The translations under genes and the position numbers were made by a program. A stretch of 32,158 bases of DNA. It comes from Smithellaceae bacterium (GTDB taxonomy: Bacteria; Desulfobacterota; Syntrophia; Syntrophales; Smithellaceae). A model generated the notes under the pieces. It had not been told where the DNA came from and made no database searches. It saw nothing but the letters and a program-made list of their open reading frames with translations. Where the stretch lies: positions 1 to 32,158 of the forward strand of contig JAQUVQ010000033.1 of the NCBI GenBank assembly GCA_028693285.1. Direction: 5' to 3'. This document shows positions 2,420-27,252 of this stretch, in pieces (the first letter of the stretch is position 1; every line of letters begins with the position of its first letter).

Positions 2420-2488
2420 GTTTCCCCTCCTGTTTATCAAAATTCCCCTTAAAAATACGATCAAATTTCTGCCGAATATTTGATCCTT

Positions 2489-5163: not shown

Positions 5164-5165
5164 CG

Positions 5166-5870: not shown

Positions 5871-6609
5871 ATTCCCTCCAACCTCTGCCCAGATACGCCT
5901 CAATCACGTCGTCATTGCTCACCACCTGATCCGGCGTGCCTTCGGCCAGTTTGGCCCCGTAATTGATCGCGACAATCCGGTCGGCCGCCTCCATCAGGAC
6001 CGCCATGACATGCTCGATCCAGAAGACGGTGATGCCGAACTCCTCCTTGGCTCTGCGGATCATACGGGTGGCGTTTTTGGCCTCCCCCGGATTCAGGCCG
6101 GCCATGACCTCGTCGATAAACAGAAGCTGGGGTGTCGTGGCCAGGGCTCTCGCCAGCTCCAGCATTCTCAGTTCGTAAAACGTCAGGTCGCGCGCCAGAA
6201 TGTTGCGCTTGCTGAAGAGCCCGACGAATTCCAGATAATGCGTCGCGTCATACATGGCGTCCTGAAAGCTCTGGTGGACTCTTTTTTTGCCGGATATGGA
6301 GCTGGCCAGCACGCTGGTCAGCGCGGTGAGCTCCGGGAAGGGGCGCGGAATCTGGTAGGTGCGGGCAAGCCCCCTGTGCGCCCGCTCGTGCGGCTTCATG
6401 CGCGTGATGTCCACGCCGTTCATTTCCACCTTGCCCGACGTCGCGGGAAGATACCCCGTCAGGCAGTTGACTACGGTGGATTTGCCGGCGCCGTTGGGAC
6501 CGATGAAGCCCAGCGTCTCCCCCTGGTAAATTTCAAAGGACACGTCGTTGACCGCCACGATTCCCCCGAAACGCTTGGTCAGATTGCTTACTTTCACCAA
6601 TGGAGTCAT
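5863..6609 (-). CDS. livG: ABC transporter ATP-binding protein, LivG-like with a divergent signature
   Basis: A 248-residue LivG-type ATPase. Walker A is GPNGAGKST at about residues 37-45 and Walker B is LLFIDEVMAGLNPGEA near 157-172. The C-terminus ends AYLGRGWREYA, as in other LivG proteins. The ABC signature is unusual: where LivG proteins normally have L-S-Y-G-Q, this protein has LTFYELR, so the conserved glycine is missing. The D-E-P after Walker B is D-E-V. The rest of the helix (LELARALA) is normal. Since the partner LivF keeps a perfect signature, one of the two composite ATP sites may be degenerate, a known arrangement in asymmetric ABC transporters. It is co-transcribed with livM, with a gap of only 6 bp. 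Confidence 0.9.
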   Translation of the reverse strand: MTPLVKVSNLTKRFGGIVAVNDVSFEIYQGETLGFIGPNGAGKSTVVNCLTGYLPATSGKVEMNGVDITRMKPHERAHRGLARTYQIPRPFPELTALTSVLASSISGKKRVHQSFQDAMYDATHYLEFVGLFSKRNILARDLTFYELRMLELARALATTPQLLFIDEVMAGLNPGEAKNATRMIRRAKEEFGITVFWIEHVMAVLMEAADRIVAINYGAKLAEGTPDQVVSNDDVIEAYLGRGWREYA

Positions 6610-6615
6610 GGCTTT

Positions 6616-7656
6616 CTACCTCCGCACGTGAATGGTTGGCAGATATTCGCGATACCGGCGCTTCCGGTAAAGGCCGAAGAGCCCTTCCGGAAGGACAAAC
6701 AGCAGCGCCAGAAGGATAATGGGGAACAGCACCGGCTGGATCGGCCCCATAAACCGGATCATCAGCATCTCCAGGAAAGCGACAAAATAGCCGCCGACGA
6801 CGCAGCCGAAAACCTGGGCGCGTCCGCCGATCATCAGCACCAGCAGAACCTTCAGCATGAAGGTCAGCGGCAGATACGTAATGCCGGCAAACGAACTGAA
6901 GTAGTGCGCGTAAAACCACCCGATGATGCCGATCATCGTGGAGGCGGAGACAAACGCGATAATTTTGATTTTGCTGATGTGGATGCCGATGGAATGGGCG
7001 ACGTCCTCGTCATCGTTGATCGACGCCATCAAAAGGCCGTAGCGGGACTTGAGAACCTTGTTGATGATCCACAAATAGACGAACATGATCACCGTGGAAA
7101 TGTAGCCGATCACCAGAAAGTTGATTTTGGAGTTTCCGGTGTCGAGAAGCGGCACAATGCCGAAAAGGCCGGTGTCGCCCTTGAAAATGTCCGGATAGAT
7201 GAAGGTCACCTCCAGAAATACCAGCGGCAGCAGCAGCGTCAGGAGCACATAGTACAGGCCGCGCGCCATGATGACCAGCGGGCTGAAGATCAGCGCCGCA
7301 ATCATGGACGTCAGAATGGCGAAGGGCAGAGTGGTCAGCGGCCCCCACCCGTAGGCGATGCTCAAAAGCGCCGCCGAATACCCCCCCACTCCGATGTAAA
7401 ACTGAGGGCCGAAGTTCATTCGCCCCGTGCCGATGGTCATCAGCGCCAGGGGCATCGCGATGGCGGCGTAAATATTGGCCGAAATCATGGTGTTGATCAG
7501 ACCGGGGCTGACAAAGTAGCAAACCGTCGGAAAGATAAACAGGACAGCGGCCCAGATCAGCGTGTTGCGCCAGTACCGCGGCTCCAGGACCCACTCCCAT
7601 TTCTTGGTTCCCAACCGGATGACAATGCGGTCCCGCTTTAATTCCATCTCTACCAT
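6616..7656 (-). CDS. livM: ABC transporter permease, LivM-like
   Basis: A 346-residue integral membrane protein with about eight to nine hydrophobic segments, beginning after a charged, roughly 30-residue N-terminal stretch (MVEMELKRDRIVIRLGTKKW). Family marks include MTIGTGRMNFGPQFYIGVGGYSAALL (starting near residue 110), YGLLMASINDDEDVAHSIGI (the cytoplasmic loop that contacts the ATPases) and GGRAQVFGCVVGGY. The protein ends in a basic tail (PEGLFGLYRKRRYREYL). The start at 7656 follows AAGGAG at a longish spacing, and the gene overlaps livH by 7 bp. It forms the translocation pore together with LivH. Confidence 0.9.
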   Translation of the reverse strand: MVEMELKRDRIVIRLGTKKWEWVLEPRYWRNTLIWAAVLFIFPTVCYFVSPGLINTMISANIYAAIAMPLALMTIGTGRMNFGPQFYIGVGGYSAALLSIAYGWGPLTTLPFAILTSMIAALIFSPLVIMARGLYYVLLTLLLPLVFLEVTFIYPDIFKGDTGLFGIVPLLDTGNSKINFLVIGYISTVIMFVYLWIINKVLKSRYGLLMASINDDEDVAHSIGIHISKIKIIAFVSASTMIGIIGWFYAHYFSSFAGITYLPLTFMLKVLLVLMIGGRAQVFGCVVGGYFVAFLEMLMIRFMGPIQPVLFPIILLALLFVLPEGLFGLYRKRRYREYLPTIHVRR

Positions 7657-8525
7657 AGCGATTCACTCCTTGCTAACCCCTGGGGTCGAATGATCAAAAT
7701 GACCATGACGAGAATCAGCGCCGATAAATTCATGAAACGAGGCTCTCCGAGGACAAAACAGACAAAGGCGTGGGCAAATCCGATCAAAAAGCTGGCCAGA
7801 ATGGTTCCCTTGATGTTGCCCAGTCCTCCCAGCACCGCAACCAGGATCGCGGTCACCATGTACATCCAGCCCATCCCCGGGTCCAGCGACCAGACCGGCG
7901 CGACAATGAGCATGCCGATAATCACCGGCAGCAGCACCAGCATCATGGTGAACATATAAAGCCATTCAACGTTGATGCCGACGATTTTCGATGAATAAAT
8001 GTCCTGGGACAGGGCGCGGATGGCCATGCCCGTTTTGGTTTTCAGGAAGAAGAAGACAAACGCGCCCGTCATCGCCAGCGCGATGAAGGAGCCGATGATC
8101 AGCTGCTTGGGCACCACGGCGTCTCCGAACTGATAGGTGCCTTCGGCCAGGGTGGTTTCCAGGTACACTCCCGCCTGAATCGGATAAAAGTAGTTGGCCG
8201 CCTGTTCCACGATCAGCGCGACCAGCAAAAGCGCCGTCAGAAGGACATCCTCGGTCGTCATGTATTTTTTTATCATGCCCTTGTAAATAATGATGGAAAC
8301 TATAAACTGGACGGCGATCATGCCGAAGATGGAAGGGATCAGAGGCCAGCCCAGCGCCGACATGAACATCCATGTGCCGTAAACCGTGAGAGGAAAGATA
8401 TAGGCGTACCCGAGATGAAAAATCCTGAGCACTCCGCAGATCAGAGAGAAGCCAAGGGCAAGCAGAAGATAAATGGACCCCATCACAAACGTGAAGACCA
8501 GAACATTCTCAATATACGTCACCAT
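7650..8525 (-). CDS. livH: ABC transporter permease, LivH-like
   Basis: A 291-residue permease with about eight hydrophobic helices. Typical LivH elements are GSIYLLLALGFSLICGVLRIFHLGYAY (the LxxGxxxIxxG-like first helix region), GMAIRALSQDIYSSKIVGI (the ATPase-contact loop) and AVLGGLGNIKGTILASFLIGF near the C-terminus. It is the first gene of the minus-strand operon, so the operon promoter should lie in 8526-9273. The start codon at 8525 has only a weak site (GGGTGAAAAGG). The gene order livH-livM-livG-livF followed by two CoA transferases and the binding protein is visible directly. Confidence 0.9.
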   Translation of the reverse strand: MVTYIENVLVFTFVMGSIYLLLALGFSLICGVLRIFHLGYAYIFPLTVYGTWMFMSALGWPLIPSIFGMIAVQFIVSIIIYKGMIKKYMTTEDVLLTALLLVALIVEQAANYFYPIQAGVYLETTLAEGTYQFGDAVVPKQLIIGSFIALAMTGAFVFFFLKTKTGMAIRALSQDIYSSKIVGINVEWLYMFTMMLVLLPVIIGMLIVAPVWSLDPGMGWMYMVTAILVAVLGGLGNIKGTILASFLIGFAHAFVCFVLGEPRFMNLSALILVMVILIIRPQGLARSESLW

Positions 8526-9273
8526 GCCTTTTCACCCTTTTTGATGGATCGAAATTTTTTCATTGCTACGCTTATGAGAAGGTCCCCCCGTTTTCCGGGA
8601 ACCCCTTCTTTCGTCTGAATCAGCGCCGGATCGGGAAACCGGCGCGCCATGCATCAACGAAACAGCCCCCGCACCCGGACATCGCCGGGCCGGCGGCTTT
8701 GGGAAAAAGCGCGGATGAATGATTTTCGGAAAACGGAAAATGACTGACGGTTAGTAACGGGTTGTGAGTCTGTGAGGCATCCTTTTGGGAATGAGGCGGG
8801 TGGATTTGAGTTTCGGCAATCCGTTTTAACGGAAAAACGATTGCGAACACAAGGCCTCCAAAGCTTCCGGAAGTTGTATCTGTTCCACCTTCAGGAAAAC
8901 CGTTTGGACATTCGTTCCAGGATTCGGCTTCCAACAGTCATGCGCTTTTCAGCGGCTTTGTTACGGCACCCCGAAACATTTGGCACTTATAGCAAAAAAG
9001 TTTTTTACTGCTTAAAATAAGTTGGCGGGTTTGTCAACGGAAAATATTCCGGCGGGTTTTTTTACAACGGCGGCATGGGGAAGAAAGGGGGCCGTTTTGT
9101 GCAGGACCGCCCAATAATTCCTTGCCTCAGAGAACAATTCTTGATAAATGCGCTCTAAACAAAAATAGTTTTTGATGGAATTCAGGGTAAAGACCGCTTT
9201 GCAAAGCTGTGGCCGATTGTCCATCTGTATTGCAATGCTTGAAACTCAAAATAAAGATCAGCGAGGTAAAGTT
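8526..9273. other. Divergent intergenic region without a supported gene
   Basis: These 748 bp separate the livH start (minus) from the thiolase start (plus). Short open frames exist, but none has recognisable protein character or a convincing ribosome-binding site. The left half is GC-rich. The part from about 8980 to 9250 is AT-richer and holds several T-runs, as expected for promoters of both transcription units. I could not identify a specific promoter, riboswitch or operator with confidence. Confidence 0.5.
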
Positions 9274-10455
9274 ATGAAAGAAGTTGTCATTGTCAGTGGA
9301 GCCAGGACGGCTATCGGAGATTATATGGGGTCGCTTTCAAGTCTGAACGCCGTTCAACTGGGTATCATTGCTTTAAAAGGCGCCATCGCCAAAGCAGGAA
9401 TCGATAAAAGCTTGATTCAGGAAGTGATTGCCGGCCATGTAAACCAGGCCGGGGCGCCGGGCAACAGCGCCCGTCACATCGCGCTGGGCGCGGAACTGCC
9501 GGTAGAATCCTTTGCTTTTACCGTTCATCAGCAGTGCCCCTCTTCCATGCGCGCATCCGAAATGCTGTCCCAGGAGATTATGCTGGGCAAAATTGATATC
9601 GGCGCGGTCGTCGGCGTTGAAAGCATGAGCAACGCCCCCTATCTGCTGTTTGGCGCCCGCAAAGGCTACCGGCTGAACGACGGTGAAAAGATTCAGGACA
9701 GCCTGATGATCGGCGGCCTGGTCGATGTGTCTTTAGGCTACCACATGGGCGTTACGGCGGAAAATATTGCCGACCAATACCAAATATCCCGCCGGGAGCA
9801 GGATGAATGGGCATTGATGAGCCATCAGCGGGCCTGTGCCGCCATTGAAAAAGGCTGGTTCAAGGATGAAATCATTCCCGTGGAGGTCAAAACCAGAAAA
9901 GGGCCGGTTATGTTCGAACGTGATGAACACCCCCGGGCCGACACCAGCATGGAGAGTCTGGGTAAACTCAAACCCGTTTTCAAGAAAGACGGCACCGTCA
10001 CGGCGGGTAATGCCTCCGGTTTAAACGATGCCGGCTCCAGCATGATCATGATGGCGGCCGAGAAAGCCAAAGAACTCCGTCTTAAGCCCATCGCCCGCGT
10101 GGTGGCATCCGCCCCCGGCTCCGTCGAGGCCCGCATCATGGGCATGGGCGTGGTTCCGGCCATTCACAATGCACTGAAATTCGCCAAAATGAAACTGGAA
10201 GACATGGACTACTTTGAATTGAACGAAGCCTTTGCCGCCCAGGTCATCGGCTGCAACCGTGAGTTGAAAGTCCCTCTGGACAAGGTCAATGCCGTCGGTT
10301 CCGGCATCAGCATGGGCCATCCGGTTGGCGCCACCGGCGCAAGATTGATCATCACCATGATGAATGAACTCAAGCGCCGCGGCAAGAAATTCGGCTGCGC
10401 GGCCCTTTGCGGCAGCGGCGGCACCGGCCACGCGTTTATTATTGAAATGCTGTAG
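9274..10455 (+). CDS. Thiolase (acetyl-CoA C-acetyltransferase family)
   Basis: A 393-residue thiolase, which condenses two acyl-CoA molecules or cleaves a 3-oxoacyl-CoA with CoA in the cytoplasm. The start at 9274 (MKEVVIVSGARTAIG) follows GCGAGGTAAAG; in-frame codons upstream give a tail not typical of the family. The nucleophile is Cys88 in VHQQCPSSMRA, the oxyanion-hole motif is NEAFAAQ at 317-323, the active-site histidine is His349 in MGHPVGATGAR, and the base is Cys379 in CAALCGSGGTG. These positions match biosynthetic/degradative thiolases of about 390 residues. The context around the nucleophile (CPSSMRA rather than CGSGLKA) and GSGISMGHP rather than GGAIALGHP are variants that may reflect a different acyl chain preference. 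It is followed by a hairpin and then the 4-hydroxybutyryl-CoA dehydratase-like gene. Confidence 0.9.
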   Translation: MKEVVIVSGARTAIGDYMGSLSSLNAVQLGIIALKGAIAKAGIDKSLIQEVIAGHVNQAGAPGNSARHIALGAELPVESFAFTVHQQCPSSMRASEMLSQEIMLGKIDIGAVVGVESMSNAPYLLFGARKGYRLNDGEKIQDSLMIGGLVDVSLGYHMGVTAENIADQYQISRREQDEWALMSHQRACAAIEKGWFKDEIIPVEVKTRKGPVMFERDEHPRADTSMESLGKLKPVFKKDGTVTAGNASGLNDAGSSMIMMAAEKAKELRLKPIARVVASAPGSVEARIMGMGVVPAIHNALKFAKMKLEDMDYFELNEAFAAQVIGCNRELKVPLDKVNAVGSGISMGHPVGATGARLIITMMNELKRRGKKFGCAALCGSGGTGHAFIIEML

Positions 10456-10457
10456 CT

Positions 10458-10486
10458 GCAGGGAATGGTTTAAAACCATCCCCTGC
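10458..10486 (+). terminator. Inverted repeat/possible terminator after thiolase
   Basis: GCAGGGAATGGTT at 10458-10470 pairs with 10474-10486, with one mismatch and a very small loop; only a short T-run follows. It could be a weak terminator between thiolase and the next gene. Alternatively it is a relative of the palindrome at 1026-1049, which also begins CTGCAGGGAA. Confidence 0.45.
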
Positions 10487-10510
10487 TTTCGGGGGCAAAT
10501 CCCGATCCGT

Positions 10511-10526
10511 TGGTTGACATCAACAA
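10511..10526. promoter_or_regulatory. Possible operator/promoter element upstream of the AbfD-like gene
   Basis: GTTGACATCAAC (10513-10524) is a 12-bp interrupted palindrome that includes a consensus -35 hexamer, TTGACA. An AT-rich TTATAAA begins 20 bp later, which is longer than the usual 17-bp spacing, so the promoter assignment is weak. A symmetric site overlapping a -35 box would suit a dimeric repressor. Confidence 0.3.
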
Positions 10527-10602
10527 ATAAGTGACCAAATTATAAACCAACACATCAAACACCAGGCGACTCATCCCAAGTCGCAATATCAGGAGGAACA
10601 CC

Positions 10603-12063
10603 ATGGCCCTAAAGACGCCAGAGCAGTACGAAGAGAGCATGCGTAAGATGAACTTCAAGATATACCTCATGGGGGAACTCGTGGAGAACTGGGTGGACAA
10701 CCCCATCATCCGTCCATCCATGAACTCCGTCAAAATGACCTACGCGCTGGCCCAGAAGCCGGAATATGAGGATCTGATGACGGCCAAATCCCATCTTACG
10801 GGAAATAAAATCAACCGTTTCACCCACTTGCATCAGAGCACCGACGATTTGATCAAAAAAGTCAAAATGCAGCGGCTTTTGGGCCAGCAGACCGCATCCT
10901 GCTTCCAGCGGTGCGTAGGCATGGACGCCATGAACGCCGTGGACAGCACCACCTACGAAATGGACCAGAAACTGGGCACCCAGTATCATGAACGATTCAT
11001 CAAATTCATGAAAATGGTCCAGGAAGAAGACCTGACCGTGGACGGCGCCATGACCGACGTCAAGGGCGACCGGGGCCTGGCCCCCCATCAGCAGGCCGAC
11101 CCGGACCTGTACGTCCATGTCGTCGAGAAAAACGACAAAGGCATCGTCGTTCGCGGCGCCAAAGCCCATCAGACCGGCGCCGTCAACTCCCACTGGATTC
11201 TGGTCATGCCCACCGTCGCCATGGGCAAGGACGACGCGGATTACGCCGTTTCCTTTGTCTGCCCGGCGGATGAAAAGGGCATCTTCTATATTTACGGCCG
11301 CCAGTCCTGCGATACCAGAAAACTGGAAGGCGGCACCATTGACGTAGGCAATTACCAGTTCGGAGGCCATGAAGCCCTGATGGTCTTTGACAACGTCTTC
11401 GTTCCCTGGGAAAACGTCCTCATGTGCGGCGAGACAGAATTCAGCGGCATGCTGGTCGAACGCTTTGCCGGCTACCATCGCCAGAGCTACGGCGGCTGCA
11501 AAGTCGGCGTTGGCGATGTTCTCATCGGTGCGGCGGCGCTGGCGGCGGATTACAACGGAGCGGCCAAGGCCTCTCATATCAAGGACAAGCTCATTGAAAT
11601 GACGCATCTGAACGAAACGCTCTTTTCCTGCGGCATTGCCTGCTCCGCCCAGGGGCATAAGACCGCATCCGGCACCTACCTCATCGACCTTCTGCTGGCC
11701 AACGTCTGCAAGCAGAACGTCACCCGATTCCCCTATGAAATCTGCCGGTTGGCCGAAGACATTGCAGGCGGCATGATGGTCACCATGGCTTCCGAAAAGG
11801 ATTTCAAGAATCCGGAACTCGGCAAGGTTCTGGAGAAGTACCTGAAAGGCAACGCCAATGTAACCTGTGAAGACCGAGCGCGCATCATGCGACTGGTGGA
11901 AAACCTGACCTTGGGCACGGCGGCCGTCGGTTACCGGACGGAATCGATGCATGGCGCCGGTTCGCCCCAGGCCCAGCGCATCATGATCGCCCGCCAGGGC
12001 AACCTGGAGCACAAGAAGAAACTGGCCAAAAACATCGCCGGCATCAAAGAAGAAAAGAAATAG
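10603..12063 (+). CDS. abfD: 4-hydroxybutyryl-CoA dehydratase/vinylacetyl-CoA isomerase-like protein
   Basis: A 486-residue flavin/[4Fe-4S] protein of the 4-hydroxyphenylacetate-3-monooxygenase fold. AbfD converts 4-hydroxybutyryl-CoA to crotonyl-CoA by a radical mechanism. The cluster ligands and catalytic residues known from the Clostridium aminobutyricum enzyme are visible: Cys100 and Cys104 in TASCFQRCVGMDA; Glu257 in GGHEALM; and His292, Tyr296, Cys299 and Lys300 in YHRQSYGGCKVG. The C-terminal glutamate is Glu447 in TESMHGAGSPQAQRI. Length and start (AGGAGGAACACC before ATG) are normal. The complete set makes the activity likely, though other members of this family act on related hydroxyacyl-CoAs. 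A strong hairpin follows the stop. Neighbouring thiolase and AOR-ADH genes suggest C4 acyl-CoA metabolism. Confidence 0.88.
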   Translation: MALKTPEQYEESMRKMNFKIYLMGELVENWVDNPIIRPSMNSVKMTYALAQKPEYEDLMTAKSHLTGNKINRFTHLHQSTDDLIKKVKMQRLLGQQTASCFQRCVGMDAMNAVDSTTYEMDQKLGTQYHERFIKFMKMVQEEDLTVDGAMTDVKGDRGLAPHQQADPDLYVHVVEKNDKGIVVRGAKAHQTGAVNSHWILVMPTVAMGKDDADYAVSFVCPADEKGIFYIYGRQSCDTRKLEGGTIDVGNYQFGGHEALMVFDNVFVPWENVLMCGETEFSGMLVERFAGYHRQSYGGCKVGVGDVLIGAAALAADYNGAAKASHIKDKLIEMTHLNETLFSCGIACSAQGHKTASGTYLIDLLLANVCKQNVTRFPYEICRLAEDIAGGMMVTMASEKDFKNPELGKVLEKYLKGNANVTCEDRARIMRLVENLTLGTAAVGYRTESMHGAGSPQAQRIMIARQGNLEHKKKLAKNIAGIKEEKK

Positions 12064-12068: not shown

Positions 12069-12108
12069 CCGGTGCTTCCGCCGGCCAAAAATCCGGCGGA
12101 AGCACCGG
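12069..12108 (+). terminator. Terminator after the AbfD-like gene
   Basis: A perfect 16-bp stem (CCGGTGCTTCCGCCGG at 12069-12084 and its complement at 12093-12108) with an 8-nt A-rich loop begins 6 bp after the stop codon. It is followed by T-rich DNA (TTTCACTTTT). Confidence 0.85.
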
Positions 12109-12169: not shown

Positions 12170-12245
12170 ATTATTTCATTGACTTGCCCCTGTTGTCTTC
12201 TGTATATTCCAGCCACACAGGCTTTCGATCCTGACTGGGGAATTT

Positions 12246-15095
12246 ATGAAAATCCTGCGCGTGTCGCTGAATGACCAAAAAGTATTCGCCGAACCGCTTC
12301 CGCCGGAGTGGACTCATCTGGGCGGCAGCGCTTTGATCGCGAAAATCCTCAACCGGGAAGTCCCGCCGCAGTGCGATCCGCTGGGGCCGGAAAACAAGTT
12401 CATTGTCGCGTGCGGTCCGCTGGCCGGCACGCGCGCGCCGCAACTGGGACGCATGTCCGTCGGCGCGAAAAGTCCGCTCACCCAGGGCATCAAGGAAGCC
12501 AACTCGGGCGGTCCCGCCGGTCAGTATCTGGACCGTCTGGGATTGCGCGCCATCGTGTTCGAGGAATTGCCGCAGGACGGCAAACTCCGCGTGCTCGTGG
12601 TGACAAAGGATGAGGCAAAACTGGCGCCGGCCGAAGAATACCGCGGTTTGAAAAATTACGACCTGGTTTCCGCCATCCATAAAAAATATTCCGACAAAGT
12701 CGCCGTGATCTCCACGGGAATTGCCGGAGAGCGCCGGTACAAGGGAGCGTCCGTATCGCTGACCGACATTTTCGGCGATCCCTCGCGCAACGCCGCCCGC
12801 GGCGGCCTGGGCGCGGTGATGGGCTCCAAAGGCCTCAAGGCCATCATTCTGGATCCGACCGGAACCGGGCAGGTGGCGCTGGCCGATCCGGACGCCTTCC
12901 GCAAAATCGTCCGCGACTGGGCGGAAGTGATGAAGCACGACGTCACGATCAGTCTTTACACGCGCTTCGGCACGCCTTTTGCGATCAACAACTCCGCGGG
13001 CCACGGCACCCTTCCGGCCCTCAATTACCGTTCCGGACGCCCCGAAAATTTCACGGCGGTCAGCGGCAACAACATCCAGAGAATCCTGTTCGAGCGCGGC
13101 GGAAAAATGCACGGCTGCATGCCCGGCTGTCTGGTGCAGTGCTCGATCATCTATCCGGACAAAGAGGGCAAAAAAATCTGCGCGGCGTATGAATACGAAA
13201 CGATCGCTCTTCTGGGAACCAACCTGGGCATCACCGACAACGACGCCATCGCCCGGCTGAAGTTCCTGTGCGACGACATCGGCCTCGACGGCATCGAAGC
13301 GGGCAGCGCCCTGGGCGTCGCGGCCGAAGCGGGCAAAATGAACTGGGGCGACGCCAAAGGCGCGGAAAGCCTGCTTTTGGAAATCGAAAAGGAAACGCCG
13401 CTCGGCTTCGCGCTCGGCAACGGCGTCGTGACAACGGCCCGTTTCCTCAACGTGGAACGCATTCCCGCCTTCAAGGGCCAGGCCCTGCCCGCCCACGATC
13501 CCCGCGCGGTCAAGGGAACGGGCGTCACGTACTTTTCCTCGCCCATGGGCGCGGACCACACGGCCGGCCTCACCTACCGCCAGCCCAAGGAAAAGAAAGA
13601 CCAGATTCAGACCTCTCTTGCGACGCAGATCAAGGCGGCGGCCTGCGATGCGATGGGCTACTGCCTCAACGCCGTTCCCGGCGGCGAATCCGTTTATCCT
13701 TTCTTTGCCGGGCTCATGAACGCGCGCTACGGCCTTGCGCTGACAGAAGAGGACATTCTTGCTGCCGCCAAGGAAACCCTGCGCGACCAGCTGGCTTTCA
13801 ATGAGCAGGCACAGTTCAGCAGGATCGATACGACGATTCCCGCCTTTTTCCGCGAGGAGCTCGTCGCCCCGACCAGTTCCGTCTTCGACGTCGACGAAGC
13901 AGAAGTGCGGAATTTATGGAAGGGCCTCGACACGTTCCGGGAAAAGAAAAAAGTCCGGGAAATCCGCATCCCGCCGATGCCCGACATTCTGATGGGCGAA
14001 GGCGTCGCAAAATCCATGGGCCGGAAAATCCGCGACATGAAGGTGTCAAAGATTTTCCTGGTCACCGATCCGTTCATGTTCAAAAGCGGCCGGGCCGCCG
14101 AAGTCGCCGACATTTTGAAGAAAAGCGGCATTGAAGCGGAAATATTCGCCGAGGTCGAACCGGACCCGCCCATTGAACTCATCGAACGCGCGGGCGCCCT
14201 GTACAGGGAAACGGGCTGCAACGGCATTTTGGGGCTGGGCGGCGGCTCTTCGCTGGACACGGCCAAAACGCTGGGCCTGCGCGTCACGCATTCAGGGGAC
14301 CTGCGCGAATACGAAGGCATTGTCGGCGGCGGCGGCAAAATCAAGCCCGTCTTTCCGCCGATCATCTGCCTGCCGACCACCTCCGGCACCGGCAGCGAAG
14401 TCAATCCCTGCGCCGTTTTGACGGACAAGGCCCGCGATTTGAAGTTCATTTTGATGAGCAATCACTTCATTCCCAGGCTCGCGGTGATCGATCCGCTCTT
14501 CACCAAAACCATGCCGCCGGGTCTGACCATTGAATCCGGCATCGACGCTCTGTCGCACTGCATCGAAGGCTATGTTTCGCTTGCGACGCCTTACCATCCC
14601 TACTTCGAATCCAAGGCGCTTTACGGCATCAAACTCATCGGCCGGAGCCTCATTACCGCCTGCCGCGAGCCGGACAACCTGCGCGCGCGGACCGACATGT
14701 GCATGGCGGCCCTCTGCGGCGGCCTGGCGTTTCTCAAAGGCCTGGGCCTGGGGCATGCCCTCACCCACGCCATCGGCGCGCATTATCATGTGCCGCACGG
14801 ACGGGCGGCCATTTTCGGTTTGCTGGGCTTCGTGATGGCCAACAGGGAAACCTGCCGCGACGCGTTTTCGGACATGGCCTACCTCATCAACCGCTCCGAT
14901 GACCTGGAAGGAGCGCTCCGCCGGCTTTACACAGAACTGCAAATCGACCTGCGGCTCAAATCCTACGGCATTTCCCGGGAAGCGCTCAAGGAAATCGCCT
15001 TTTACACATCGCGCGACGCGGTCAACATGGCGACGGATCCGACATCGCCCGGCCAATCGAAAATTCTGGAGATGCTCACGTCCCTGTATGAATGA
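12246..15095 (+). CDS. Fusion of aldehyde:ferredoxin oxidoreductase and iron-containing alcohol dehydrogenase
   Basis: One uninterrupted 949-codon frame. Residues 1 to about 565 are a complete tungsten-type aldehyde:ferredoxin oxidoreductase. The N-terminal pterin domain has LGGSALIAKIL and the ARGGLGAVMGSKGLKAI motif at 184-200. The [4Fe-4S] cysteines are Cys291, Cys295 and Cys299 in HGCMPGCLVQC, and the fourth is Cys473 in DAMGYC. Residues from about 572 to 949 are a complete group III iron alcohol dehydrogenase. GLGGGSSLDTAK (663-674) binds NAD(P), and the iron ligands are Asp767, His771, His837 and His851 (IDALSHCIEG, GHALTHAIG, PHG). Such a protein could reduce a carboxylate to aldehyde with ferredoxin and on to alcohol with NAD(P)H, or the reverse, possibly passing the aldehyde between sites. 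The start has a modest site (CTGGGG). Substrate is unknown; succinate semialdehyde/4-hydroxybutyrate is suggested only by the upstream AbfD-like gene. Confidence 0.9.
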   Translation: MKILRVSLNDQKVFAEPLPPEWTHLGGSALIAKILNREVPPQCDPLGPENKFIVACGPLAGTRAPQLGRMSVGAKSPLTQGIKEANSGGPAGQYLDRLGLRAIVFEELPQDGKLRVLVVTKDEAKLAPAEEYRGLKNYDLVSAIHKKYSDKVAVISTGIAGERRYKGASVSLTDIFGDPSRNAARGGLGAVMGSKGLKAIILDPTGTGQVALADPDAFRKIVRDWAEVMKHDVTISLYTRFGTPFAINNSAGHGTLPALNYRSGRPENFTAVSGNNIQRILFERGGKMHGCMPGCLVQCSIIYPDKEGKKICAAYEYETIALLGTNLGITDNDAIARLKFLCDDIGLDGIEAGSALGVAAEAGKMNWGDAKGAESLLLEIEKETPLGFALGNGVVTTARFLNVERIPAFKGQALPAHDPRAVKGTGVTYFSSPMGADHTAGLTYRQPKEKKDQIQTSLATQIKAAACDAMGYCLNAVPGGESVYPFFAGLMNARYGLALTEEDILAAAKETLRDQLAFNEQAQFSRIDTTIPAFFREELVAPTSSVFDVDEAEVRNLWKGLDTFREKKKVREIRIPPMPDILMGEGVAKSMGRKIRDMKVSKIFLVTDPFMFKSGRAAEVADILKKSGIEAEIFAEVEPDPPIELIERAGALYRETGCNGILGLGGGSSLDTAKTLGLRVTHSGDLREYEGIVGGGGKIKPVFPPIICLPTTSGTGSEVNPCAVLTDKARDLKFILMSNHFIPRLAVIDPLFTKTMPPGLTIESGIDALSHCIEGYVSLATPYHPYFESKALYGIKLIGRSLITACREPDNLRARTDMCMAALCGGLAFLKGLGLGHALTHAIGAHYHVPHGRAAIFGLLGFVMANRETCRDAFSDMAYLINRSDDLEGALRRLYTELQIDLRLKSYGISREALKEIAFYTSRDAVNMATDPTSPGQSKILEMLTSLYE

Positions 15096-16885: not shown

Positions 16886-18871
16886 ATGAAATTAAGATAT
16901 ATCATTGCTGTCTGGGCCATCGTGTTTTTCGCCGCCAGTGGTTTGGCTGCCGAAAAATCGATTACCATTGTACACACCAATGACATGCACTCCCACCTGC
17001 AGGGATTTTCGCCGGAGATCGACTATCAACCGATGAAGCTCCATGCCGACGAGACCCTTGGCGGCTGGTCGCGCGCGGCAAGCGTTATACAAAAATTCAG
17101 AAGAGAAAAAAACAATCCGGTCCTAGTCGTGGATGCGGGCGATTACACGATGGGGTCTTTTTTTCACATGCTGAACCGTGAAGAGGCTTTCGAACTGCGC
17201 CTGCTCAACGCCATGGGCTATGACGTTGTTACGCTGGGCAACCATGAATTCGACCTCAAGCCGGCAGGGCTGGCCGCCGCCCTCAGAACGGCCAAAGCCA
17301 AAGGCGGAGCGCCGCAGATCGTTTTCGCCAGCGCCGTATTTGACCGGCAAAAGCCTGAGCTGGCGGATCTGGAAGACGCGTTTTCCCAAACCGGCGTGAA
17401 AAGCTGCACGATCCTGGAGCGGGGCGGACTGAGAATCGGCGTCTTTGGAATTCTGGGAAAGGACGCCATCGAGGTCTCTCCTTTCGCCAAACCCCTGAAA
17501 TTCCGAGACCCCATCGAGACCGCCCGGGACATGGTGAATATCCTTCGGAATCGGGAAAAAGCGGACCTGGTGGTCTGCCTCTCGCACGGCGGACTTCGCG
17601 ACAACCCCAAAAAATCCGAAGATGAAATCCTGGCCTCCGAAGTCAAAGGCATCGACGTTATCGTCAGCGGTCACACGCACACCGTGCTCGGCAAGCCGAT
17701 CATCGTCAATGACACTATCATCGTTCAGGCCGGGAGTTACGGAAAGCAGGTCGGCGTTCTGGATATCGCCTGGGAATCAGGCCGGGTGACACTGAAAAAC
17801 TACGCCTTGATCCCCGTCAACAGTTCCGTTGCCGGAGATCCGAAGATTCAGAAGATGATCGACGCCTTCAAACAGCAGCTCAACACGCGCCTGCTCGGTT
17901 TGCAAAATCTGTCCTACGACCGGATCGTCGCCGAAACCGCGTGGGATCTGAAACTCGTTGCCGGTGAATCGCCCCTGGGCAATCTGCTGGCCGATTCCAT
18001 CCGCTGGTCCGTCAACCGGGTCTCGTTCGATCCAAACGATCCGTCAAGCCGGGTGGTGGTTGCCGTCGAATCCAACGGCGTCATACGTGACGACCTGCTT
18101 CGGGGAAAAACCGGAAAGATCGGCTTCGGCGATCTGTTCCGCACGATTCCGCTGGGCATCGGCGTGGACGATACCATGAGCTATCCCCTGATTTCCTGTT
18201 ACCTGTACGGGCATGAAATCAAAAGAGCGCTGGAAATTCTGACCAGCGTGCGGCCGCTCAAAAGCAATGATGACTATTATCTGCAGCTCTCCGGGCTCCG
18301 CTTTTCCTATAATCCGCGCCGGGTTTACTTTGACCGCGTCACCGCCATAGCAATCGGCAGCGAGGAAGAGGGATACCGGCCCCTAGATTACAGCCGGTCC
18401 AACCGGCAATTGCACCGGATCGCAGCCAATATTTACAATGCGACTTTTTTGCAGATTGTGGGCCGGTTTACCTATTCGCTTTTGGAAATCGTTCCGAAAG
18501 ACAAAAACGGAAAGCCTCTGGCAAAACTCTCCGACGCGCTCGTGGACGCCGACCCGGTCCTGCCCGGCATTCAGGAGCTGAAAGAATGGGAGGGCGTCCT
18601 TCGGTACGTTCAGTCCTTTCCGGACACCAACGGCAACGGCATTCCGGATCTTCCGGCTAAATATTCGGGAACACTCGGCCGCATCGTGGAGGCGCCCAGC
18701 TGCAACCCGGTCCATCTGTTCTCCAAACCTGCCGCCTCGACCATCATCGTGCTGGCGGCGGCAGGCGTCGTTTTGTTGTTGATTGTTGCAGCGGTTATGG
18801 TAAGAAAAGGCCGAAGGCTGAAGGCTGAAGGAAGCAAGAGTGCGGGATCATACAAAACTGAAGGCTTTTGA
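16886..18871 (+). CDS. 5'-nucleotidase/2',3'-cyclic phosphodiesterase family protein, membrane-anchored
   Basis: A 661-residue exported metallophosphoesterase. The start at 16886 (MKLRYIIAVWAIVFF) is preferred over ATG at 16859 because it gives a clean signal peptide (cleavage near ASGLAAEK) and follows an AAGGG-rich site. Two-metal motifs are in order: HTNDMHSH at 30-37, DAGD at 83-86, GNHEFD at 118-123, then SHGG and SGHTHT. The 5'-nucleotidase C-terminal domain (LVAGESPLGNLLADS, then ESNGVIRDDL) follows. A C-terminal hydrophobic segment (TIIVLAAAGVVLLLIVAAV) and basic residues anchor it in the membrane. The last about 20 residues (RRLKAEGSKSAGSY...) are encoded by a heptad repeat and the start of the next gene, so the tail looks acquired. 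Likely role: periplasmic nucleotide salvage; the substrate is not certain. Confidence 0.85.
   Translation: MKLRYIIAVWAIVFFAASGLAAEKSITIVHTNDMHSHLQGFSPEIDYQPMKLHADETLGGWSRAASVIQKFRREKNNPVLVVDAGDYTMGSFFHMLNREEAFELRLLNAMGYDVVTLGNHEFDLKPAGLAAALRTAKAKGGAPQIVFASAVFDRQKPELADLEDAFSQTGVKSCTILERGGLRIGVFGILGKDAIEVSPFAKPLKFRDPIETARDMVNILRNREKADLVVCLSHGGLRDNPKKSEDEILASEVKGIDVIVSGHTHTVLGKPIIVNDTIIVQAGSYGKQVGVLDIAWESGRVTLKNYALIPVNSSVAGDPKIQKMIDAFKQQLNTRLLGLQNLSYDRIVAETAWDLKLVAGESPLGNLLADSIRWSVNRVSFDPNDPSSRVVVAVESNGVIRDDLLRGKTGKIGFGDLFRTIPLGIGVDDTMSYPLISCYLYGHEIKRALEILTSVRPLKSNDDYYLQLSGLRFSYNPRRVYFDRVTAIAIGSEEEGYRPLDYSRSNRQLHRIAANIYNATFLQIVGRFTYSLLEIVPKDKNGKPLAKLSDALVDADPVLPGIQELKEWEGVLRYVQSFPDTNGNGIPDLPAKYSGTLGRIVEAPSCNPVHLFSKPAASTIIVLAAAGVVLLLIVAAVMVRKGRRLKAEGSKSAGSYKTEGF
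18808..18831. repeat. Left 24-bp inverted terminal repeat of the four-helix-bundle cassette
   Basis: Three and a half heptads: AGGCCGAAGGCTGAAGG followed by CTGAAGG. It matches the reverse complement of 19204-19227 at 22 of 24 positions. It lies within the 3' end of the nucleotidase reading frame. Confidence 0.85.
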
Positions 18872-19196
18872 GCTGGCGGACAATCTTGTTGATTTAGTTT
18901 ATAGAGCAACAGAAAGCTTTCCAAAAGAAGAGTTATTCGGACTTACTTCGCAAATTCGTAGGTCGGCGATTTCAATACCTTCAAATATTGTTGAAGGGTG
19001 CGCAAGACACACTCAAGCCGATTATATAAGATTTCTTTATATTGCATTCGGTTCGTTAAGAGAACTGCATTATCAGTTGAATTTATCCAAGCGGCTGGGC
19101 TTCCTGACAAATGAAGCATTATTGAGTATTGAACCAAAAGTTACTGAAACTGAAAAAGTGCTGAACGGCTTGATCAAATCTTTGCAAAGAGATTGA
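18840..19196 (+). CDS. Four-helix-bundle protein (S23/IVP family)
   Basis: A 118-residue, all-helical protein of the 23S rRNA intervening-sequence (S23) family, TIGR02436-like. The signature stretches are KLKAFELADNLVDLVYRAT, FGLTSQIRRSAISIPSNIVEG (residues 33-53) and ADYIRFLYIAFGSLREL. The GTG start at 18840 (RDHTKLKAFELA) follows AAGGAAG and overlaps the nucleotidase 3' end by 32 bp. The gene is visibly AT-richer than its surroundings. It is enclosed by 24-bp inverted heptad repeats, with only 8 bp between each repeat and the coding region. Members encoded in rRNA inserts bind nucleic acid or oligomerise, and relatives accompany diversity-generating retroelements (Avd), but chromosomal stand-alone copies have no established function. 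Context points to a small mobile cassette. Confidence 0.9.
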   Translation: MRDHTKLKAFELADNLVDLVYRATESFPKEELFGLTSQIRRSAISIPSNIVEGCARHTQADYIRFLYIAFGSLRELHYQLNLSKRLGFLTNEALLSIEPKVTETEKVLNGLIKSLQRD

Positions 19197-19203
19197 TTTT
19201 CAA

Positions 19204-19227
19204 CCTTCAGCCTTCAGTCTTCAGCCT
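19204..19227. repeat. Right 24-bp inverted terminal repeat of the four-helix-bundle cassette
   Basis: CCTTCAG-CCTTCAG-TCTTCAG-CCT, starting 8 bp after the four-helix-bundle stop codon. It is the inverted partner of 18808-18831 with two mismatches. The following operon's first ATG is 23 bp further on. Confidence 0.85.
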
Positions 19228-19249
19228 AACCCCCTCAGGATGTTTTAAC

Positions 19250-19810
19250 ATGAACAAAGAGTTTATTGCCATCCGCTGGCACGGACGCGGCGGCCAGGGC
19301 GCGATCACGGCGGCCAAGATTGTGGCCGGCGCCGCATTCGCCTCCGGCTACGCGGGCGTGGTCATGGCGCCGACCTTCGGCACCGAGCGCAGAGGCGCGC
19401 CGGTCATGACGTCGCTCAAGATCTCGAAGAAGAAAATTTACGATCTGTCGCCCATCGAAACGCCGGACATCGTCGTCGTCCTGGACCATCTTCTCCTCAA
19501 GGAGGCGGATGTCACCCACGGCCTCAAGCCAGGCGGCATCATCGTCCTGAATACGCCGATGGCCCACGAATCCTATCATTTTGAGGACTACCGGCTGGCC
19601 ACCGCGGACATCACGGCCATCTCCGTGGAAGCGGGGCTGCCGCACGGCATGGTCAACACCGGCATTATCGGCTCCCTGGAAAAAGCCACGAACCTCCTGG
19701 GAATCGACCTTTTGATTTCCGGCATCGCAGAGGAATTCCGCACGCGAAAACCGGAAAAGAACTCCCTGGCGGCCAAAATCGCCTACGAGAGAACCGTGGC
19801 GGGAGGCTGA
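19250..19810 (+). CDS. 2-oxoacid:ferredoxin oxidoreductase, gamma subunit (operon 1)
   Basis: A 186-residue gamma subunit (Pfam POR), the domain that helps bind CoA in the tetrameric enzyme oxidising a 2-oxoacid to acyl-CoA and CO2 with ferredoxin. The start at 19250 (MNKEFIAIRWHGRGGQGAITAAK) is set by the RWHGRGGQG motif at the N-terminus; AGGA lies upstream. FGTERRGAPVMTSLKIS and LKPGGIIVLNTP are further family marks. Next gene begins 2 bp after the stop. The order gamma-delta-alpha-beta is that of archaeal and many anaerobic bacterial pyruvate/2-oxoisovalerate oxidoreductases. Sequence differences from the second operon (29711-30259) mark it as a distinct paralogue, perhaps with another 2-oxoacid. 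Confidence 0.9.
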   Translation: MNKEFIAIRWHGRGGQGAITAAKIVAGAAFASGYAGVVMAPTFGTERRGAPVMTSLKISKKKIYDLSPIETPDIVVVLDHLLLKEADVTHGLKPGGIIVLNTPMAHESYHFEDYRLATADITAISVEAGLPHGMVNTGIIGSLEKATNLLGIDLLISGIAEEFRTRKPEKNSLAAKIAYERTVAGG

Positions 19811-19812
19811 AC

Positions 19813-20121
19813 ATGGGAACAAGAAATTACAGAAGAAAAACGTCCCACAGCGAACACGGGGCGGGAGACGGAGGAAGAACGGGGTCCTGGAGAGTGGAGC
19901 GGCCGGTCCTTGACCCAAGCCTCTGCATTCCCTGCAAGAGAAACAAGGAGGCCTGCTTCATCTGCTGGCTGTTCTGTCCCGATGTCGTGATCTCGCGGAC
20001 GATTCCGCCCACCATCAACCTGGAATACTGCAAGGGCTGCGGCATCTGCGCCGAAGAGTGCCCCACCAAGGCCATCACCATGGCGGATGAAGCCAAATTC
20101 GCGGAAGAAGACAAGGAGTAG
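19813..20121 (+). CDS. 2-oxoacid:ferredoxin oxidoreductase, delta (ferredoxin-like) subunit (operon 1)
   Basis: A 102-residue subunit with two [4Fe-4S] sites that passes electrons to soluble ferredoxin. The second site is canonical: Cys73, Cys76, Cys79 and Cys83 followed by Pro (CKGCGICAEECP). The first is unusual: Cys38, Cys41, then an inserted basic stretch KRNKEA, and Cys48, Cys51, Cys55-Pro. There are thus five cysteines where the family has CxxCxxCxxxCP. The paralogue at 29419-29697 has the normal spacing. Which four bind the cluster cannot be told. The N-terminal GSWRVERPVLDPSLC is typical of PorD. Start and stop leave 2 bp and 5 bp to the neighbouring genes. Confidence 0.88.
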   Translation: MGTRNYRRKTSHSEHGAGDGGRTGSWRVERPVLDPSLCIPCKRNKEACFICWLFCPDVVISRTIPPTINLEYCKGCGICAEECPTKAITMADEAKFAEEDKE

Positions 20122-20126
20122 ACGCG

Positions 20127-21326
20127 ATGCATATTATCGAAAACGGAAACGCCGCAGCGGCTCTGGGCGTCAAGCTCTGCCGGGCCAATGTGATCGCGGC
20201 CTATCCCATCACGCCCCAGACGCCGCTCACGGAAAAGCTCTCCGAATACGTTGAATTAGGCGAGATGAAGGCGGAATATATTCCCGTGGAAAGCGAGCAC
20301 TCCGCGCTGGCGGTCTGCATTGCCGCTTCCTCCGCCGGCGCCCGGGCGTTTACGGCCACCAGCGCCAACGGACTGCTGTACATGCACGAGCAGGTGCAGT
20401 GGGCATCGGGCGCGAGGCTGCCGATTGTCATGTGCGTGGTCAACCGGGCGGTGGGGGCGCCCTGGAATGTCTGGAACGATCAGCAGGATTCGATTTCGCA
20501 GCGGGACACGGGCTGGATACAGATCTACTGCGCGGACCACCAGCAGATTATCGACACGGTCATCAAGGCCTACTGGCTGGCGGAGCAGGTGAGCATTCCC
20601 GTGATGGTCTGCTACGACGGTTATATTTTATCCCACACGTTCATGCCGTTTGATCTGCCGGAACCGGAAAAGGTGGACGCCTTTTTGCCGCCGTTCAAAC
20701 CGGATTATTTTCTCAATCCCCTTGAACCGGCCAATCTCAACACGGTGACGCTGCCGGACGTGCGGATGGATGTCAGGGGCGAACTGGCCCACGGATACAT
20801 GGAAATCCGCTGTCTGCTGCAGGAAGACCTGCGCAAAGCGCTCCAAACCGCGGGCGAAGCGGAAAAACGCTTTGCCGGAATCTTCGGCCGCAAAGCCGAT
20901 CCCTTCATCGAACCGTACCGCTGCGACGATGCGGAGCATGTCGCCGTCGGCCTGGGATCGATCACCTACCAGATGCGCGTTTGCGTGGACCAGTTGAGAG
21001 CCGAAGGAATCAAAATCGGCGTGATGGGCGTTCGCTATTACCGTCCGTTTCCGGATGAGGCAATCGCCTCGGCCCTGAAAGGGAAAAAAGGCGTGATCGT
21101 CGTCGAAAAGGCCCTGAGCTACGGATACGAAGGCGCCCTGATGTCGGATTTGAAGTCGGCGCTGTATGAATACCTGGCCGGAACCGGATCGCTTCCGGTC
21201 GTCCAGAATTTTATCGCGGGTATCGGCGGACGCGAAATCAGAACCGATGATTTGACGCAAACCCTTCGCGCCGCGGCTAAAGGCCGGGTTTCCAAAGAGC
21301 CCCTCTGGATCGGGCTCAGGCTATAG
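20127..21326 (+). CDS. 2-oxoacid:ferredoxin oxidoreductase, alpha subunit (operon 1)
   Basis: A 399-residue alpha subunit carrying the pyrimidine-binding part of the thiamine diphosphate site. AAYPITPQTPLTEKLSEY opens the domain, and the catalytic-region glutamate is in VESEHSA at about residues 54-60. ATSANGLLYMHE and QRDTGWIQIYCAD follow. The C-terminal half has the transketolase-C-like portion (VGLGSITYQMR, RYYRPFPDEAI). The ribosome-binding site AAGGAG lies 8 bp before the ATG. The segment NVWNDQQDSISQRD replaces the NIHxDHSD-type loop common in pyruvate enzymes, which argues against assuming pyruvate as substrate. It pairs with the beta subunit starting 9 bp downstream. Confidence 0.9.
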   Translation: MHIIENGNAAAALGVKLCRANVIAAYPITPQTPLTEKLSEYVELGEMKAEYIPVESEHSALAVCIAASSAGARAFTATSANGLLYMHEQVQWASGARLPIVMCVVNRAVGAPWNVWNDQQDSISQRDTGWIQIYCADHQQIIDTVIKAYWLAEQVSIPVMVCYDGYILSHTFMPFDLPEPEKVDAFLPPFKPDYFLNPLEPANLNTVTLPDVRMDVRGELAHGYMEIRCLLQEDLRKALQTAGEAEKRFAGIFGRKADPFIEPYRCDDAEHVAVGLGSITYQMRVCVDQLRAEGIKIGVMGVRYYRPFPDEAIASALKGKKGVIVVEKALSYGYEGALMSDLKSALYEYLAGTGSLPVVQNFIAGIGGREIRTDDLTQTLRAAAKGRVSKEPLWIGLRL

Positions 21327-21335
21327 GAGAATGCC

Positions 21336-22238
21336 ATGCAGGCAAAATCAACCATTTTAAGTTTACCGACGGAAGAATTGGTTCATCCGGGAACGCGGGC
21401 GTGCACGGGCTGCGGCCTGTCCATCGCCTACCGGGTAGGCCTGAAAGCGCTGGGCAAAGATACGATTCTGGTGGTGCCGCCCAGCTGCCTCACCGTACTG
21501 CAGGGGCTTTTCCCGGTGGCCTCGACGAAGCTGCCCTGCCTGAACGTGACGTTCGCTTCAACGGCCGCCGCCGCGACGGGCATTCTGGCCACGCTCAAGG
21601 CCCGGGGCAACGAGCATACCACGGTTGCCGGCTGGGCGGGCGACGGGGGAACCAGCGACATCGGCCTGCAGGCGCTCTCCGGCGCGGCGGAGCGCGGCGA
21701 CAACTTCATCTACTTCTGCTACGACAACGAAGGCTACATGAACACGGGCGTGCAGCGCTCCGGCACAACGCCCATCGGCGCCATCACCGCAAACACACCG
21801 TTCAAGGGGAAGCTTCAGCAGAAAAAGGACGTGCCGGCCATCATGGCCGCGCACCATTTAAGCTACGTCGCCGCCTGCTCCGCGGCCTATCCGCTGGACC
21901 TCTACGACAAAATCAAGAACTGCCTCGCGCTGCCCGGCACGAAGTATTTCCACATTCACATTCCCTGCCCGCCGGGCTGGGGCTATGATCCCCGCTACGG
22001 AATCAAAATCGGGCGGCTGGCCGTGGAAACGGGCTATTACGATCTTTATGAAATCGTCAACGGCGAATTCCGTCTGACGGCCGCTTCGGAAAAGCTGATT
22101 GAAAAACGGAAGCTGGTGCCTGTCCGCGAATACTTCCGCGCTCAGTCCCGCTTCCGGACGCTCACCGACGCGCAGATCGACGACATTCAGAAAACCATCG
22201 ACGAGAAATGGGCGGGATACTACAAAAAAGACGAGTGA
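21336..22238 (+). CDS. 2-oxoacid:ferredoxin oxidoreductase, beta subunit (operon 1)
   Basis: A 300-residue beta subunit with the diphosphate-binding motif of thiamine diphosphate, GDGGTSDIGLQALSGAAERG (102-121), continuing into CYDNEGYMNTGVQRSG. The cluster cysteines are Cys23 and Cys26 (ACTGCG), Cys51 (PPSC) and Cys211 (CPPGW). In most pyruvate enzymes, and in the second operon here, the third cysteine lies in ATGCxE; here it is VVPPSCLTV, so the neighbouring Gly and Glu are changed. The cluster should still form, but substrate preference may differ. Together with its gamma, delta and alpha subunits it forms a complete enzyme. AGGAG precedes the start. Confidence 0.9.
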   Translation: MQAKSTILSLPTEELVHPGTRACTGCGLSIAYRVGLKALGKDTILVVPPSCLTVLQGLFPVASTKLPCLNVTFASTAAAATGILATLKARGNEHTTVAGWAGDGGTSDIGLQALSGAAERGDNFIYFCYDNEGYMNTGVQRSGTTPIGAITANTPFKGKLQQKKDVPAIMAAHHLSYVAACSAAYPLDLYDKIKNCLALPGTKYFHIHIPCPPGWGYDPRYGIKIGRLAVETGYYDLYEIVNGEFRLTAASEKLIEKRKLVPVREYFRAQSRFRTLTDAQIDDIQKTIDEKWAGYYKKDE

Positions 22239-24908: not shown

Positions 24909-24922
24909 GGCTTGCTCCACCT

Positions 24923-26770: not shown

Positions 26771-27252
26771 GACTTCGCCCCCTCTTCATTGATCTTTTTG
26801 ATGATTTTATCCACTTTGCTGATGGTGACCTGACCGTGGTAGTCGGCATTGATCACCACAACGGGCCCGAGCGCGCAGGCGCCGACGCAGTTGACGGTTT
26901 CCAGAGAAAATTTTCCGTCCTTCGTGGTTCCCCCCGGCTTGATGCCCAGCGTGGTTTCGAACCGGTCCTGAAGGATGGCCGCGCCGCGGACGTGGCAGGC
27001 GGTCCCCTTGCAGATCTTGACGACATGCTTTCCGCGCGGCTTCAAACTGAAGGCCGTATAAAACGTCGCGGCCTCATAGACGCGGCTCATCGGCACGTTC
27101 ATCGCCCTGGCCGCCGCTTTCAGGGCTTCCTTCGGAAGGTAGTTGAAGGTCTCCTGAATATCCTGCAAAACGGCGATCATGGCGCTTTTGCCGCCCCCGT
27201 GTTTTTTGACAATCTGTCTGGTTTTTGCTGCAACACCTATCGGTTTCGTCAT
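26767..27252 (-). CDS. NADH dehydrogenase subunit, NuoE/HydC type
   Basis: A 161-residue thioredoxin-fold [2Fe-2S] protein that pairs with the NuoF-like subunit. Cluster ligands are Cys81 and Cys86 (CKGTAC) and Cys122 and Cys126 (CVGAC). The helical N-terminus ([19 protein letters not shown]) and [10 protein letters not shown] are typical. ATG at 27252 (MTKPIGV) is chosen, 7 bp after GAGGTGAG; a GTG four codons upstream sits inside that site. The gene starts 36 bp after the beta subunit of oxidoreductase operon 2 on the same strand, with no terminator in between, so it is probably co-transcribed with it. Confidence 0.92.

Follow-up and report, generated by a model that had tools for sequence, protein, structure and literature searches.

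Sequence analysis of a 32,158-nucleotide stretch of DNA from a Smithellaceae bacterium (contig JAQUVQ010000033.1, positions 1 to 32,158 of the forward strand; termed the window) identified a gene in which an aldehyde:ferredoxin oxidoreductase (AOR) is joined to an iron-containing alcohol dehydrogenase (Fe-ADH or ADH). The encoded protein probably interconverts an alcohol, its aldehyde and the carboxylic acid in one chain and free of coenzyme A (CoA), the aldehyde being predicted to pass between the two sites. The original prediction of one open frame joining a complete AOR to a complete Fe-ADH was borne out, as all four Pfam domains exceed their curated cut-offs in the order AFOR_N, AFOR_C, Fe-ADH and ADH_Fe_C. 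The gene is composed as follows:

12246..15095, + strand: AOR-Fe-ADH fusion gene, 949 amino acids, ATG start, one open frame
12249..12854, + strand: AFOR_N, residues 2-203, predicted tungstopterin-binding part (Pfam PF02730, E 6.5e-56, 189.7 bits, cut-off 29.8)
12912..13865, + strand: AFOR_C, residues 223-540 (Pfam PF01314, E 1.1e-47, 163.5 bits, cut-off 27)
13116..13142, + strand: C291-x3-C295-x3-C299, predicted [4Fe-4S] ligands; the fourth ligand, C473, is at 13662-13664
13866..13982, + strand: C-terminal tail of the AOR (FDVDE...LWKGL), then a short linker to the ADH, residues 541-579; unfused relatives end within it
13983..14495, + strand: Fe-ADH N-terminal nucleotide-binding domain, residues 580-750, with D608 and GGGS at 665-668 (Pfam PF00465, E 2.4e-45)
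14526..15086, + strand: Fe-ADH C-terminal domain (ADH_Fe_C), residues 761-947, with the predicted metal ligands D767, H771, H837 and H851 (Pfam PF25137, E 1.7e-32)

The genome carrying the fusion has a size of 2.68 Mb and is 99% complete. A 95%-identical fusion is encoded on a contig titled Smithella sp., and the source bacterium is close to Smithella, a partner-dependent anaerobe. By sequence, the AOR half (residues 2-541) is nearest to AOR proper and not to FOR, WOR5 or BamB, with phmmer scores against solved proteins of 189 bits for 9mqx, 181 for 1aor and 170 for 9g7j, followed by 146 for FOR, 98 for WOR5 and 73 for BamB. The archaeal-type AORs of Pyrococcus (1aor) and Clostridium autoethanogenum (9g7j) and the bifurcating 9mqx are its closest solved relatives in sequence and fold, but identity over the structural alignment amounts to 28-31%, and the fusion differs in its CX3CX3C motif and the fused ADH. 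For residues about 576-946, the closest solved sequences are iron alcohol dehydrogenases. Zymomonas ADH2 (3owo) and the Bacillus methanol dehydrogenases 8zwd and 8zrl have the full fold and the four metal-ligand positions in common with this half at 29-30% identity. The predicted structure of the fusion (predicted local distance difference test score 89, predicted template modeling score 0.86) points to a confident two-domain fold whose halves match solved AOR and Fe-ADH. An unfused AOR such as that of G194 stops at ...FDVDPEEVASIWERL, and the fusion runs on there (...FDVDEAEVRNLWKGLDTFREKKK) into the ADH. As the end of the unfused enzyme coincides with the point where the fusion continues, a short linker connects a complete AOR with a complete ADH.

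Conservation of the predicted catalytic positions was analyzed in an alignment of 135 main-type fusions (the window protein, 109 database proteins and 25 loci, near-identical copies included), three fusions of a second type described below and 18 rows of AORs that have no ADH half. The latter comprise 17 unfused AORs, one of them from contig C88 of the same genome, and a fusion that is cut at a contig end (G098). Cysteines 291, 295, 299 and 473, for which an intact iron-sulfur cluster site had been claimed, are present at these positions; C295, C299 and C473 are kept in 135/135 main-type fusions, C291 in 134/135 (it is missing in G100) and all four in 3/3 fusions of the second type. E318 and H438, presumably the counterparts of the catalytic E313 and H448 of Pyrococcus AOR, were found in every row (135/135, 3/3 and 18/18), and D437 is invariant among the main-type fusions. 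The cluster spacing is CX3CX3C and not CX2CX3C, and M288 aligns pairwise with the first cluster cysteine of Pyrococcus AOR, which we take to be C288. Because all 18 rows that lack an ADH half have C291, C295 and C299 as well, this spacing is a motif of the lineage and not a sign of decay. The ADH residues Asp767, His771, His837 and His851 and the GGGS motif, which had likewise been predicted to be intact, all occur at the expected numbers. D767, H771 and H837 are kept in 135/135 main-type fusions and H851 in 134/135 (missing in P0058), the second type has the same ligands in 3/3 proteins, and we assume that this D-H-H-H set represents the four Fe-ADH metal-ligand positions. With its Fe-ADH domains, GGGS motif and metal ligands, this half has the features of a group III iron-containing alcohol dehydrogenase. 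D608, located after the second strand, and GGGS are found in 135/135 main-type fusions; if D608 has the role that we presume for Asp39 of FucO, it suggests that the ADH half uses NAD(H).

The fusion is not confined to one assembly. In the order, 21 of 155 genomes were found to encode, in a single open frame, a match covering 900 or more of the 949 residues (22 loci, with two in tandem in G065); in seven more genomes the fusion is split up at contig ends or interrupted by a stop or frameshift (G118, G057, G071, G050, G098, G046 and G111). Among 395 genomes sampled from the phylum, the main type was detected at full length in nine and in pieces in three, the second type was present in three, and some further genomes yielded an unfused AOR only. 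The order and phylum samples overlap and scoring was limited to a few top candidates per genome, which makes these counts lower bounds. The domain-architecture search proposed with the original prediction revealed that AFOR and Fe-ADH domains recur in one protein: all of the best 120 of 2435 matches to residues 380-760 carry both domain types, and 109 of these 120 are at least 900 amino acids long, though a query that spans the junction favors fusions by design. The database names of these proteins are the single-domain names 'aldehyde:ferredoxin oxidoreductase' or 'iron-containing alcohol dehydrogenase'.

The second AOR-Fe-ADH fusion was identified in three genomes (G463, G264 and G229; loci L099, L100 and L101) as frames of 985-989 amino acids. 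Its domain order is that of the main fusion, with 36-38% overall identity. In a tree of 53 AOR domains, the 33 fused rows require two changes that are forced by well-supported branches: 30 of them fall into the main clade, and G463, G264 and G229 are placed beside the unfused AORs of G012, G020 and G021. In the ADH tree (54 rows, 53 of them different), the second type is separate from the main type and clusters with stand-alone Fe-ADHs from other bacteria (support 98/95). A constraint uniting all fused rows lowered the log-likelihood by 237 on the AOR tree and 168 on the ADH tree and was rejected on both (approximately unbiased test, p-AU 6e-43 and 2e-66), so that both trees reject a common origin of the two types. 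These results indicate that AOR and Fe-ADH were joined at least twice. Unfused AORs of G155, G163, G194, G235, G229 and G015 (L094-L098 and L065) are approximately 52-54% identical to the AOR half and form the sister group of the main fusion clade in the AOR tree. The ADHs of the main fusions are not a supported clade (34/41), as the stand-alone-sized P0189 (388 amino acids) and P0208 (392 amino acids) fall beside them; these two may be ancestors, fissions or fragments. A search for close stand-alone ADHs gave many matches that resemble fragments of fusions from short contigs. Within the order, this ADH clade occurs practically only inside the fusion, since an ADH of its type (E <= 1e-60) was detected in 28 of 154 genomes and belonged to a fusion or a piece of one in 27, the exception being 38% identical.

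The same genome also encodes the two enzyme types unfused and outside the window. On contig C88 (80208-84593, L143), genes for an Fe-ADH, a second Fe-ADH and an AOR follow each other in one direction; the first ADH frame ends at 81374 and the second can start at 81371, which would give a 4-base overlap, and the AOR starts at 82647, with 19 bases between it and the end of the second ADH frame at 82627. The pairing of AOR and ADH is thus met in three ways, as the main fusion, the second fusion and this gene cluster. A conventional aldehyde dehydrogenase (ALDH)-ADH pair of separate genes was observed on contig C31 (7509-10081), where an Fe-ADH gene adjoins an aldehyde dehydrogenase gene.

In the proposed mechanism, the ADH half would oxidize R-CH2OH to R-CHO, probably with NAD(H), and the AOR half, predicted to be tungsten-dependent, would oxidize R-CHO and H2O to R-COOH while reducing two ferredoxins; a MoaA-type pterin synthesis gene (PF06463) is present in the genome. 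Both steps would be reversible. The aldehyde would be an unfavorable and reactive intermediate in either direction, so that coupling of the two sites should pay and a fusion that hands the aldehyde over would help. The net direction favored in a syntroph would be the oxidation of a short-chain alcohol or hydroxy acid to yield NADH and reduced ferredoxin; we consider oxidation the likelier direction and the reverse a real possibility. For the fusion protein, we infer tungsten use, activity, substrate, direction and transfer of the aldehyde. Precedents exist for the separate enzymes. In passages of a report on Solidesulfovibrio, the conversion of ethanol to acetate by a separate Fe-ADH and AOR is proposed to give NADH and reduced ferredoxin (PMC10084766), and parts of a Thermoanaerobacter study describe acid reduction by separate AOR and ADH enzymes (PMC10816221). 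The AOR-ADH pathway, as outlined in these portions of the two papers, employs the same two activities, with ferredoxin at the acid/aldehyde step and NAD(P)H at the aldehyde/alcohol step. It consists of two separate proteins, whereas here both enzymes are parts of one polypeptide with a short linker.

The original prediction further proposed a functional analogue of AdhE that would need ferredoxin and no CoA, and the domain composition is consistent with this idea. The N-terminal half of AdhE belongs to the CoA-dependent ALDH family; the fusion has AFOR domains in this place, and no PF00171 (ALDH) domain was found in it at E 0.001. A frame of AdhE size with an ALDH domain was not found in the genome either, its three ALDH matches being located in frames of 459, 464 and 560 amino acids. 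The fusion would thus work like AdhE without being a member of that family. A bolder extension, to which we assign somewhat less than an even chance, is that a CoA-free counterpart of AdhE was built at least twice and that the short-linked fusion polymerizes into an AdhE-like filament, in which the aldehyde would be passed on inside and electrons exchanged between ferredoxin and NAD at the level of the unactivated acid. Filament formation would be expected because AORs and Fe-ADHs each pair through a dimer interface of their own.

No report of an AOR-Fe-ADH fusion was found among the open-access papers listed by literature searches, as judged by titles and abstract beginnings. The fusion architecture is what is new here; both enzyme families are known, and the sequences were already in databases under their single-domain names, which should serve as a warning for annotators. 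According to the abstract of PMC9295118, no enzymes other than AORs are known to reduce non-activated acids with low-potential donors. The AOR-ADH route has its weak point in the unfavorable aldehyde step, and a natural single-chain version that was joined at least twice suggests that energy-starved syntrophs gain enough from coupling of the sites to make a fusion worthwhile. The protein would provide uncultured Smithella-like bacteria with a redox module linking the ferredoxin and NAD pools, and it could be used directly to test aldehyde transfer and to convert acids to alcohols.

Several observations weigh against the proposed interconversion or its importance. A match to an FeFe hydrogenase was not detected in the genome, which thus lacks the electron-confurcating partner described for Solidesulfovibrio. 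The fusion is probably dispensable, because 10 of 20 genomes of the genus show no match to it (five of these ten are less than 90% complete). The idea that this AOR group generally travels with an ADH is weakened by tblastn searches with eight ADH queries, in which none of the 16 stretches retrieved around unfused AORs, the six sister ones included, showed an ADH gene. As for the substrate, none of the curated ADH profiles provides a specific name for the ADH half, which scored far under the cut-offs with 257.8 bits for ErcA (NF041833, cut-off 550) and, second best, 232.4 bits for 4-hydroxybutyrate dehydrogenase (NF058672, cut-off 500). The gene neighborhoods, for which four neighbors per side were examined at 38 loci and recognized by a reference set, vary between lineages, and many loci are without a recognized metabolic neighbor.

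Upstream of the fusion gene, the window contains two neighboring genes that are not part of the enzyme and two putative transcription signals:

9172..10455, + strand: acetyl-CoA C-acyltransferase (thiolase) gene (NCBIfam TIGR01930, 419.6 bits, cut-off 240.55)
10603..12063, + strand: gene for a 4-hydroxybutyryl-CoA dehydratase (AbfD) homologue (best PDB match 1u8v, E 4.3e-233)
12069..12108, + strand: intrinsic-terminator-like hairpin of 16 pairs (13 G-C) between the dehydratase and fusion genes
12179..12208, + strand: promoter-like TTGACT-18-TATATT of the fusion gene

The terminator-like hairpin and the conserved promoter-like site separate the fusion gene from the dehydratase gene, which makes it likely that the fusion gene forms its own transcription unit. 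The original prediction mentioned neither this separate promoter-like site nor the neighboring dehydratase gene, and the second fusion was likewise outside it. The TTGACT-18-TATATT pattern recurs in 7/8 tested upstream regions of the genus, where 1 to 4 of 100 base shuffles each score as high, and its hexamers are the main invariant columns in an alignment of seven spacers. Promoter-like scores of at least 10 were obtained for 8/28 scanned upstream regions, outside the genus for G022 only. Stems of at least 12 pairs were recovered by a strict hairpin script in only 4/8 spacers, inverted repeats in others being seen by eye. Two tandem fusion genes were observed in G065 (L046, 7982-13900), the first copy of which is without the conserved promoter-like site.

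The gene order raises the possibility that the fusion is specific for succinate, succinate semialdehyde or 4-hydroxybutyrate and feeds or drains the adjoining dehydratase, which we regard as unlikely yet worth serious consideration. The dehydratase homologue, whose identity is well supported by the match to 1u8v, is located directly upstream of the fusion in 9/9 readable loci of the genus (9/38 examined), preceded by the thiolase in 8/9, and the 4-hydroxybutyrate dehydrogenase profile gave the second-best score for the ADH half. In one assembly (G062, L041 near 6840) the spacer is missing together with its terminator and promoter, and the dehydratase stop overlaps the fusion start (ATGA), which may be a real deletion or an assembly collapse. 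In the sister genus the fusion gene lies near succinyl-CoA ligase-like and FrdAB-like genes, and near the second-type fusion of G229 a dehydratase homologue of 71% identity is encoded on the opposite strand at a distance of two genes. However, among the four neighbors examined per side, no main-type fusion outside the genus adjoins a dehydratase gene, and three fusion-less congeners (L114, L115 and L116) carry aminotransferase-length and enoyl-CoA hydratase-like genes in the slot after thiolase and dehydratase (Pfam assignment for L116 only), not separate AOR or ADH genes that would replace the fusion. Co-occurrence with AbfD says little, because dehydratase homologues are present in 116/155 genomes of the order. 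A thiolase-AbfD-fusion operon for 4-hydroxybutyrate was set aside on account of the hairpin and the promoter-like site and is retained as a rival explanation only.

Equally doubtful, in our estimation, is a role mainly as an acid reductase, in which ferredoxin would drive reduction of the acid and the ADH half would pull the resulting aldehyde on to the alcohol, thereby discarding electrons. Syntrophs are usually short of low-potential electrons, which argues against such a sink. The acid-reducing direction has been described for separate AOR and ADH enzymes; in the Thermoanaerobacter study, as far as its excerpted text goes, removal of acetaldehyde by AdhE doubled acetate reduction by the AOR from 7 to 14 mU per mg (PMC10816221). 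Acid reduction by AORs is nevertheless described as slow in passages of PMC6365974 and PMC10816221. A third alternative to the reversible, CoA-free interconversion proposed above is aldehyde detoxification or dismutation, in which the AOR half would oxidize an aldehyde and the ADH half would reduce it. The aldehyde could come from a benzoylformate-decarboxylase-like, thiamine pyrophosphate-dependent enzyme, whose gene is located within four genes 3' of the fusion in 7/38 loci. All seven belong to the genus, and the gene was seen neither outside it nor in the window among four neighbors per side; we judge this role improbable. An assembly error or chance read-through of two neighboring genes, which the original prediction had argued against, has practically no chance of being correct: some related loci are interrupted (G046, G057 and G118), but the idea is refuted by conservation across genomes, with a single open frame in 21 genomes from one order, ligands that are invariant in either half, an intact fusion on four of five named public metagenome-assembled contigs (four of these five having also been covered by the genome searches), a two-domain model of high confidence, the independently formed second fusion and the unfused ADH-ADH-AOR cluster in the same genome.

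Further neighbors were recorded around the fusion genes. An acyl-CoA dehydrogenase gene follows directly 3' in 9/38 loci, and in the second type an acyl-CoA ligase gene follows in 2/3 loci and an MMPL-family gene precedes in 2/3, either directly or one small frame away. The window region 1058-12063 encodes a substrate-binding protein, two CaiB-type CoA-transferases, a LivFGMH-like transporter, the thiolase and the dehydratase homologue, and parts of this gene set recur in fusion-less congeners (L114, L121 and L130). Two separate gene sets for 2-oxoacid:ferredoxin oxidoreductases (19193-22238 and 27289-30259, alpha subunits identified by Pfam) lie inside the window within 12 kb, and a NuoE/NuoF-like cluster (24195-27264) adjoins the second set. 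A 118-amino-acid protein (18840-19196), which we take to resemble the four-helix-bundle or 23S intervening-sequence family, is encoded between the first of these sets and a gene that is presumably 5'-nucleotidase-like.

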